Assembly (NCBI GenBank): GCA_027593175.1
Contig: JAQCJI010000002.1
Coordinates: forward strand, 1-64,000
Length of the DNA stretch: 64,000 bases
Origin: Bacteroidota bacterium
GTDB taxonomy: Bacteria; Bacteroidota; Bacteroidia; Cytophagales; Cyclobacteriaceae
Direction: 5' to 3'
The notes below the pieces were generated by a model. That model saw only the letters and a program-made list of their open reading frames with translations. It searched no databases and was not told the origin of the DNA. The first letter of the stretch is position 1. Each line of letters begins with the position of its first letter. The position numbers and the translations under genes were made by a program. Of this stretch, positions 19,904-23,239 are shown piece by piece.

Positions 19904-21490
19904 ATGAGAAAATGCTTCTATTTTGGGCTGTTGTTGGCAACGACGATTTGTGGCAAAGCCCTTGCCCAAAGCGACTATCCCACACTCAGTCAAAGCGCTC
20001 AACGTATCCAAATACTCAGTGCCAATCCTGCAGTAGAGTTAAAGACGCTGACCAAGACCGCAGGCGGTAAGGAAATTTATGCCCTGAAGATCGGCACTGG
20101 AAACAAAGACCAGAAGCCCGCAGTCGCCGTAGTCGGCGGTGTGGAAGGATTTCATGTGCTCGGCGTGGAGCTTGCGCTTCAGTTTGCCGAAAAGCTCGTA
20201 GGAGAGAATGCCAAGGCACTTGAATCCACTACGTTTTATGTATTTCCCAACCTTTCCCCTGACGCCTATGCGCAGTACCACGATGCCTTGAAGTACGAGC
20301 GGCGAGGCAATGCCGTAGCCATCGACCACGACCGTGATGGGGTAGCCGGAGACAACGGATACCGAGACCTAAATGGAGATGGACTCATCACCTGGATGCG
20401 TATCGCAGATCCTATGGGGGACTGGACGACTTCCAAAGAAGATGCCCGCGTCCTAGTTAAAGCAGACCGAGCCAAAGGAGAAGCTGGACAGTACCGCGTC
20501 TTCAAAGAAAGTGTAGACAGCGACAAGGATGGCAAGTTTGCCGAAGACCTGAGCGAAGGCATTGCTTTCAACAAATCCCTCAGCTATAAGTTCCCAGTAT
20601 TTGAGCCCCTTGCAGGAGACTTAGCAGTATCTCAACTCGAAAGCAGAGCCTTGTTGGACTACCTCTTTGAACAGTGGAATATTTTTGCTTTTGTGACCTT
20701 TTCACCAGCCAATAACTTAAGTGCCCCGCTGAAGTACTCGGCAGGCGATGCTCGAAAGCGTGTGGTGACTTCTATTTTGGAAAAAGATCAGGCTACCAAC
20801 GCTATGGTGTCTGAACTCTACACCAAAACAGTTCCTGCCAAAGCCTTTCAGCAAACCAACCAAGGTACAGATGGGGATTTTTTCCAATGGGCCTATTTCC
20901 ACTTTGCGCGCTACAGTTTTTCTACGCCAGCCTACTGGAACCCTGAATACAAGGGTAAAACCAACGCTGAAGCTAATTTCTTAGCTTGGTCTGATTCGCT
21001 AAACTGGGATTCTTTTGTGCCTTGGACTGAAGTAAAGCATCCAGATTTTCCCAACCAACAGGTGGAAGTGGGAGGTATCAAGCCTTTCAAGATGGCGAAT
21101 CCACCTTTTGAGAAAGTGAATGAAATCGCCAAGCAGCACACGGATTTTATCCTCAAGCTTGCCGAAATGCAGCCAAAATTGGAGTTCCACCAACTCAAAT
21201 CAGAGTCACTTGGAAATGGGCTCACACGAATCACCGTAGACTTATTTAACAATTCCCCGCTACCCACGCATTCCGAAATGGGAGCTAGGTCGCGTTGGCT
21301 CAGAAAGCTACGGGTAGATATTGATGTGCCCGCAGATCAACTGATTTCTGGAGATAAGGTGAAGCTCGTCGATTCGCTAGGTGCATTTGATAAAACAAGC
21401 TTTAGCTGGATCGTGCGTAGCAAGGGTCCGGTGCAACTGAAAGCAGGTGCTCCGCATGCAGGTTTTGCTACCCAAACTGTAACATTTTAA
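19904..21490 (+). CDS. M14-fold protein, catalytically inactive paralog
   Basis: A 528-residue secreted protein (signal peptide MRKCFYFGLLLATTICGKALAQ) with the fold of M14 zinc carboxypeptidases, but with none of the catalytic residues that its downstream sister has. The zinc motif HxxE is replaced by EGFH (VGGVEGFHVLG), NPDAR by SPDAY and the zinc His by Ser (VTFSPANN). The catalytic Glu region reads FSTPAYW. Calcium-type acidic loops (DHDRDGVAGD, DSDKDGKF) are kept. Only 3 nt separate it from the active paralog, so co-translation is likely. A role as a binding partner or regulatory pseudoenzyme is inferred. Confidence 0.85.
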   Translation: MRKCFYFGLLLATTICGKALAQSDYPTLSQSAQRIQILSANPAVELKTLTKTAGGKEIYALKIGTGNKDQKPAVAVVGGVEGFHVLGVELALQFAEKLVGENAKALESTTFYVFPNLSPDAYAQYHDALKYERRGNAVAIDHDRDGVAGDNGYRDLNGDGLITWMRIADPMGDWTTSKEDARVLVKADRAKGEAGQYRVFKESVDSDKDGKFAEDLSEGIAFNKSLSYKFPVFEPLAGDLAVSQLESRALLDYLFEQWNIFAFVTFSPANNLSAPLKYSAGDARKRVVTSILEKDQATNAMVSELYTKTVPAKAFQQTNQGTDGDFFQWAYFHFARYSFSTPAYWNPEYKGKTNAEANFLAWSDSLNWDSFVPWTEVKHPDFPNQQVEVGGIKPFKMANPPFEKVNEIAKQHTDFILKLAEMQPKLEFHQLKSESLGNGLTRITVDLFNNSPLPTHSEMGARSRWLRKLRVDIDVPADQLISGDKVKLVDSLGAFDKTSFSWIVRSKGPVQLKAGAPHAGFATQTVTF

Positions 21491-21493
21491 GCC

Positions 21494-23239
21494 ATGAAGA
21501 TTATGAATATCAAACATACCGTCACTGCATTGGCTTTGGGAGCTTTATCGCTAAGTTCTTTTGAAGTAAGTGCACAGCAAGAAAATTACTTTCGGGCCAT
21601 CGGCACGCCGCACCAGCCCAAAGTGGAGATTGCTTGGAACCGCTATTACAGCGCGGAAGGGATTTGGGATTTGATGAAAAAAATTGCAGTAGCACATCCC
21701 AAACTTGCCAAAATCGAGTCTATTGGAAAGTCTGTGGAAGGCAGAGACATCCTGACCCTGACCATCACCAACTTTGCTACAGGCAAGGATACCGACAAGC
21801 CGGCCATGTGGATTGATGGAAATATCCACTCCAATGAGGTGCAAGGAGGGGAATTTTCGCTCTATGTCGCTTGGTACTTGACCGAAATGCATGCCGACAA
21901 TGAATTTGTGAAGCAGCTTCTAAAAGACAAGACCTTCTATATCACCCCGACCATCAATCCAGATGCTCGAAATAACTTCTTCAAGGAGCCCAATACGGCT
22001 AGTTCGCCCCGCTCAGGAATGCTTGTGCTGGATAATGACGGCGATGGTATGGCTGGAGAAGACCGCATGGATGACTTGGATGGTGATGGGCACATTACTA
22101 TGATGATCCGCAAGTCGCCAACGGGTAGATTTATCAAGGATCCACTTGATCCTAGAAGATTGATGCAAGTGGGACCTGACCAGGCAGGAGAGTACGAAAT
22201 GCTCGGTCAAGAAGGAATCGATAACGATGGCGATGGTGAAGTCAACGAAGATGGGATTGGCTACTATGATCCCAACCGCGATTGGGGTTGGAACTGGCAG
22301 CCAGATTACATCCAACGAGGTGCCATGCGCTATCCATTTACGCTACCTGAAAATCGTGCGGTGATGGAGTTTGTCAGCAAGCACTCCAACATTGCAGGAG
22401 CCCAGAATTTCCACAATTCAGGGGGTATGATTCTTCGAGGCCCAGGTGTGGAGGAAGATCTCAATACCTACAACAGAGAGGACATTCGAATCTACGACGC
22501 GATAGGTAAAAAAGGAGAGGAAATGATCCCGGGCTACCGCTACCTGACCTTGTACAAGGATTTGTACTCGGTATTTGGTGGGACGCTGGATTGGTTTTAT
22601 AGCAATAGAGGAATCTTTACCTATACCAATGAGCTGATGGTCTCTTACCTGTACTTCAATAAAGAGGCAGGGAGAGGCAACCAGGAGGAGCAACTCAAAG
22701 TGGACGAGCTGTTGACTTTTGGGGATGCCTTTGTCAACTACAAAGAATACAAGCATCCGCAGTTTGGCACGGTAGAGATCGGAGGGTTCAAGAAGACCTT
22801 TGGTCGTGCACATCCAGGATTTCTCTTGGAGCAGGATGCACACCGCAATGCGGCCTTTACCATTTACCATGCCTACCATACGCCCAAGCTATCCATCACC
22901 GAGGTGAAGGAAGAAGAGTTGGGAGGAGGATTGAAAGCCATTACGGCCACGATCTTCAACGAGCGCATGATGCCGACTCACGCCAGCCAAGACCTGAAGT
23001 ACCGCATTGAGCGTCCAGATTATGTGACCATCTCTGGAGCCAAGGTAGTGGCAGGCTTTGTAGTAGAAGACGAGGACATGAAGAAGTACAAAGAGCAGAC
23101 GAATTCACCAGAAAAAATGGTTGTAGCCAATATTCCGGGTATGGGTGCTGTACAAGTGAGGTGGATTGTTTCTTCTTCTGCCAATTATTCTGTCACGGTG
23201 GATTCTGCCAAAGGCGGGAAGGCTAGCTGGAAGAAGTAA
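21494..23239 (+). CDS. M14 family zinc carboxypeptidase, secreted
   Basis: A 581-residue periplasmic or exported peptidase with a signal peptide ending near SFEVSAQQ. Zinc ligands are HSNE (DGNIHSNEVQGG) and the His in AQNFHNSGG. Substrate-binding Arg is in NPDARNN and the general-base Glu in FTYTNELMVS. Two acidic loops (DNDGDGMAGEDRMDDLDGDG and DNDGDGEVNEDG) resemble calcium-binding EF-hand-like inserts. It should remove C-terminal residues from peptides. It follows an inactive paralog by 3 nt and is followed by a hairpin terminator. Confidence 0.92.
   Translation: MKIMNIKHTVTALALGALSLSSFEVSAQQENYFRAIGTPHQPKVEIAWNRYYSAEGIWDLMKKIAVAHPKLAKIESIGKSVEGRDILTLTITNFATGKDTDKPAMWIDGNIHSNEVQGGEFSLYVAWYLTEMHADNEFVKQLLKDKTFYITPTINPDARNNFFKEPNTASSPRSGMLVLDNDGDGMAGEDRMDDLDGDGHITMMIRKSPTGRFIKDPLDPRRLMQVGPDQAGEYEMLGQEGIDNDGDGEVNEDGIGYYDPNRDWGWNWQPDYIQRGAMRYPFTLPENRAVMEFVSKHSNIAGAQNFHNSGGMILRGPGVEEDLNTYNREDIRIYDAIGKKGEEMIPGYRYLTLYKDLYSVFGGTLDWFYSNRGIFTYTNELMVSYLYFNKEAGRGNQEEQLKVDELLTFGDAFVNYKEYKHPQFGTVEIGGFKKTFGRAHPGFLLEQDAHRNAAFTIYHAYHTPKLSITEVKEEELGGGLKAITATIFNERMMPTHASQDLKYRIERPDYVTISGAKVVAGFVVEDEDMKKYKEQTNSPEKMVVANIPGMGAVQVRWIVSSSANYSVTVDSAKGGKASWKK

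Follow-up and report, generated by a model that had tools for sequence, protein, structure and literature searches.

Two adjoining M14 genes

The window, a 64,000-nt stretch of DNA, comes from an Algoriphagus-like member of the Cyclobacteriaceae and carries two adjoining open reading frames on its forward strand, here called A (19904-21490, 528 aa) and B (21494-23239, 581 aa). A lies upstream; its TAA stop occupies 21488-21490 and the ATG of B begins at 21494, which leaves the gap of 3 nt reported in the preliminary description of this locus, along with the correct coordinates and frames. The upstream neighbours of A run in the opposite orientation and the gene after B begins 85 nt downstream, so that A and B constitute a two-gene unit.

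The common fold claimed for the two copies is borne out by matches to Pfam Peptidase_M14 (PF00246; 2e-14 for A and 7e-38 for B) and by their mutual alignment, which is nearly full-length (27% identity over 485 columns, E 5e-33; profile-profile E 1e-89). PF00246 is also matched by 27 of 27 diverse A proteins. A and B are M14-fold paralogs. Alignment to M14 structures, a check proposed earlier, places carboxypeptidase T and carboxypeptidase A nearest to both by sequence profile (A profile against carboxypeptidase T in the PDB, 8e-24), with A in register and its zinc site replaced. These relatives, which are also the nearest to A by fold, are active enzymes that work singly and have no partner gene, unlike A and B. 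AlphaFold2 gave a model of fair quality for A (mean pLDDT 76, pTM 0.77), for which Foldseek lists M14 carboxypeptidases in all the top places; for B as a single chain the model is poor (pTM 0.49). Residues 425-528 of A (21176..21487, + strand) are modelled as a C-terminal beta-rich domain with pLDDT of about 90.

By inspection, both N-termini resemble signal peptides ending in ...AQ, in line with the preliminary description, and both proteins are probably exported. In A this segment covers residues 1-22 (...KALAQ; 19904..19969, + strand), is helical in the model and has an AQ end conserved in relatives. Both copies also contain the acidic DxDxDG loops noted earlier, for which calcium binding is a motif-based prediction. 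In A the loops form a first block at residues 141-160 (20324..20383), with invariant Asp in the alignment, and a second, likewise aligned, at residues 205-215 (20516..20548), both on the + strand. They belong to a large insert of A and B that falls outside the alignments to carboxypeptidases T and A. D143, D145, D155, E202, D205, D207, D209 and E214 of this insert are among the most conserved residues of A, and its aspartates are common to B; the insert is therefore a candidate for a calcium-stabilised surface common to both proteins.

Active sites of B and A

Active-site positions follow carboxypeptidase A (CPA) numbering (PMC7706225, PMC11266112). B has the complete CPA set: H112xxE115 (21827..21838), equivalent to zinc ligands His69 and Glu72; R173 (Arg127); N261-R262 (22274..22279), equivalent to Asn144-Arg145; H307 (22412..22414), the third zinc ligand His196; Y358 (Tyr248); and E380 (22631..22633), the general base Glu270, all placed by alignment on the + strand. 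R173 was assigned to Arg127 from spacing and conservation, as the best-fitting invariant Arg. The HxxE, third-ligand His and catalytic Glu of the preliminary description are thus in place, but the Arg of its NPDAR motif is not the CPA Arg127. We rejected it as catalytic because the position is not kept in other active B proteins, where the context has His, Gly or Ser. Across 115 distinct B sequences, positions 69, 72 and 270 are always His, Glu and Glu, and position 196 is His in 114 and Leu in one. By its residue set (His69, Glu72, His196, Glu270, Asn144-Arg145 and Tyr248), B is predicted to be a catalytic M14 carboxypeptidase.

In A, the EGFH, SPDAY, Ser and FSTPAYW segments described earlier are all present and in register. 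E81-G-F-H84 (20144..20155, + strand) falls exactly on the HSNE of B in alignments that include carboxypeptidase T, and replaces the first two ligands; S267 (20702..20704, + strand) stands at the third ligand and P342 (20927..20929, + strand) at the general base. Tyr248 is absent. R134 occupies the Arg127 position, and N223-K224 (20570..20575, + strand) retain the carboxylate clamp of Asn144-Arg145. The claim that A had lost all catalytic residues therefore stands for the zinc ligands, general base and Tyr248, but not for the clamp.

The same pattern extends over 114 distinct A sequences. Position 69 is Glu in 101 (Lys 6, Asp 5, Arg 1, Ala 1) and never His; position 72 is His in 88, Glu in 8, Gln in 6 and otherwise various, and the eight sequences with Glu have no other ligand or base. 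Position 196 is Ser in 90 and Gly in 22 (Glu 1, Thr 1), never His, and position 270 is Pro in 108 and never Glu. A functional set of zinc and base residues is found in none of the 114, so that the loss is not a matter of chance. Asn144 is kept in 107; at position 145, 87 sequences have Lys and 24 have Arg (111 together). The clamp residues are altered in the most divergent sequences. A also conserves a motif of its own around the old base, F-x-Q-x-A-Y-x-H-x-x-R-x-S-F-x-T-P-x-W. With the zinc and base residues never complete and positions 144 and 145 mostly kept, catalysis appears to have been lost everywhere in A while the carboxylate clamp was largely retained. Judged by its sequence, A is an M14 pseudopeptidase, in that it combines the fold, lost catalytic residues and a gene conserved by selection. 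This exposes a misannotation: A matches the generic ‘Peptidase_M14, zinc carboxypeptidase’ model despite the missing zinc site, and none of the NCBIfam models checked separates A from generic M14.

Distribution and history of the pair

A is present in every sampled genome of the genus (37 genus-level genomes), in many other Cyclobacteriaceae and in other families of the class, and it occurs in about 36 of 396 sampled genomes from other Bacteroidota classes. The closest named record to the A of the window is a MAG (97% identity in A). B accompanies A in every sampled A-bearing genome, and the sole B-clade protein without a visible A (G551, L214) lies at a contig end. A sits directly upstream of B on the same strand in 37 of 37 genus genomes and nearly everywhere else; in three divergent lineages (G235, G339, G599) the genes are unlinked, both are still present, and A evolves fast. 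The search for the pair in other Bacteroidota that had been proposed earlier thus found co-occurrence and adjacency across several classes. No third gene is conserved in the unit across families. Neighbours are shared only among close relatives, which indicates that A and B were kept together while their surroundings changed.

A tree built from 67 sequences separates a single A clade (support 100) from a B clade (support 99) and leaves two long outlying M14 sequences in neither. The clades are sisters with closely similar branching. Over 27 genomes the pairwise identities of A track those of B (r 0.91), a correlation much of which a common species history would produce anyway. A plasmid search outside the phylum returned one haloarchaeal homolog, encoded by a single gene of the same architecture on a megaplasmid of Halomontanus rarus (L245:4968-6629). 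The A profile gives it a slightly higher score than the B profile does; it was rejected as an A, given its intact HxxE, His and Glu, and serves as an outgroup. Because this homolog has an intact site and branches outside both clades, the inactive state of A is most likely derived, and arose once.

Several variants were observed beside the standard pair. Family f101 has an A-B-B' unit (L209:4716-9861, L213:1-3980), and at L213 one B copy has Leu for the third zinc ligand, as though a copy of B were taking over the dead role. Second kinds of A-B pair, branching deeply, occur at four loci (L210, L211, L212, L217), and one genome (G519) holds two different pairs (L202, L217). A solitary M14 homolog outside both clades (L188:1-1659, G066) has Asp at His69 and lacks the Glu270 equivalent, possibly an independent inactivation. 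The genus also has a third M14 family of about 640 aa (L065:96-2012 on contig 83 of G000, and L222-L243), found in another class as well (G571). In 22 of 22 members His69, Glu72 and Glu270 are kept, with Asp for His196 and His for Asn144, which suggests an unusual His-Glu-Asp zinc site. This third gene is absent from 5 of 25 genus genomes, all 25 of which have the A-B pair.

A dead protein kept beside a live one

So, what is A kept for? A decaying duplicate would need little explanation, and A does evolve somewhat faster than B: pairwise Nei-Gojobori dN/dS over 16 close pairs has a median of 0.06 in A (range 0.03-0.10) and of 0.03 in B (range 0.02-0.07). One A frame is also broken, in a distant genome of another class (G537, L209), where it is split into two overlapping frames and B is duplicated. 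However, these values are far from the neutral dN/dS proposed as a refutation test; A is under strong purifying selection. Nor do the 37 genus-level genomes show an internal stop in A, the other signature of decay proposed for close relatives, and the single ancient origin spans several classes. Decay can be practically discounted, and was rejected on dN/dS, single origin and intact frames. A might instead do something new, binding a metal at a different site through the swapped Glu81 and His84 with another ligand, or using a Glu81-His84-Ser267 hydrolase triad in the old zinc pocket. The Glu and His sit exactly on the His and Glu ligand positions, and the combination with Ser (EHSP) recurs in 73 of 114 A sequences, with seven more having Gly in place of Ser (EHG). 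But within the genus several members have Glu or Gln in place of His84, position 267 is Gly in 22 of 114, and the third ligand is not supplied by any other conserved His, Cys or Asp. With His84 varying inside the genus and Ser or Gly at the third ligand position, A is unlikely to have a conserved alternative zinc site; the same variation of His84 tells against the triad, and both were set aside, the whole reading being very improbable.

The more credible alternatives accept a catalytically dead A under selection and differ over its dealings with B. An independent role, with A as a secreted peptide binder (scavenger, delivery protein or sensor) that shares B's pathway and transcript but forms no complex with it, would account for the retained clamp, for the conserved motif around the old base and for the persistence of A unlinked from B in three lineages. 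We consider it less probable than partnership, though the likeliest of the alternatives: A always co-occurs with B in the sampled genomes, and this constancy with long-term adjacency suggests a tighter dependence. Among the known roles of dead paralogs at large is inhibition, and A, upstream of and adjoining B, might be an inhibitor or propeptide-like chaperone that silences B until export or displacement by substrate. The data fit activation equally well, however, and A is full length with its own signal-like N-terminus, so such a role is distinctly unlikely.

We favour as probable, on these sequence comparisons, the explanation that A is a secreted M14 pseudopeptidase serving the active carboxypeptidase B as an obligate, non-catalytic partner. 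A has lost its zinc site yet is strongly selected, which makes the dead protein very probably a working partner, not a decaying gene. Partnership is supported by the absence of a working zinc site from all 114 A sequences versus the sites kept in B (n=115), by the dN/dS values, and by mirrored clades, co-occurrence and adjacency in the only unit conserved at the locus across families. The retention of Asn144 and Arg or Lys145, and the dispensability of the third M14 (absent in 5 of 25) where the pair stays, also support it; the unlinked lineages, the broken frame and the clamp changes in divergent A count against it. That A is an ancient, conserved pseudoenzyme is strongly supported by universal site loss, a single clade, co-occurrence and strong purifying selection, and the preliminary description, which proposed a conserved pseudoenzyme over a decaying gene, is upheld by the intact frames, low dN/dS, single ancient origin and adjacency with B.

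Under this explanation, A and B would be co-expressed from the two-gene unit, exported and paired as a heteromer. With its zinc site and general base lost, A should not hydrolyse peptides; it is probably metal-free, but retains its fold, its acidic loops and the greater part of the clamp, which anchors the C-terminus of a substrate. It may still bind peptide C-termini through that clamp, and could recognise or present them for B, or hold B in an active form; the data favour none of activation, presentation and inhibition over the others. More tentatively, and with appreciably less confidence than the partnership itself, we suggest that A and B form a heteromeric bacterial M14 carboxypeptidase in which a metal-free subunit captures or presents substrates via an Asn144/Arg145-type clamp, the pair having stayed a unit since early in the history of the Bacteroidota.

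Pairs of dead and active metallopeptidases are already known. Bacterial M16B peptidases are encoded in two-gene operons of active and inactive homologs (PMC11266112), and the A-B genes resemble these, and MPP alpha/beta, as adjoining, co-oriented active and inactive paralogs that always co-occur, even in the three unlinked exceptions; the M16B fold is unrelated and its heteromer is solved, whereas that of A and B is putative. In Helicobacter pylori, Csd1 and the zinc-free Csd2 (M23B) pair as a heterodimer (PMC5053510). The putative A-B pairing would likewise join a zinc-binding peptidase to a zinc-less paralog, but Csd1-Csd2 differ in fold and substrate and are confined to cell-shape peptidoglycan enzymes. 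In the open-access literature, subscription papers being mostly outside the scope of the search, we found no bacterial M14 pseudopeptidase or tandem described.

The M14 pseudopeptidases covered by a 2024 review (PMC11266112; also PMC7706225), CPD domain III, AEBP1/ACLP, CPXM1, CPXM2 and Ecm14, are eukaryotic, and their modes of action are mostly unknown. A resembles them in having a conserved M14 fold, predicted secretion and an incomplete catalytic set. CPD-III also acts beside active M14 domains (PMC11266112, PMC7706225), but as a domain within one chain, whereas A is a separate bacterial gene. The eukaryotic proteins all keep His69, usually with more zinc ligands, and all have a changed Arg145 (PMC11266112, Table 2); in A the reverse holds, the ligands being lost and Asn144 and Arg/Lys145 kept. 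If real, the A-B heteromer would present the opposite pattern to the known M14 pseudopeptidases, and a dead and active pair spread across a bacterial phylum may offer a tractable system for learning what an inactive peptidase contributes to its active twin.
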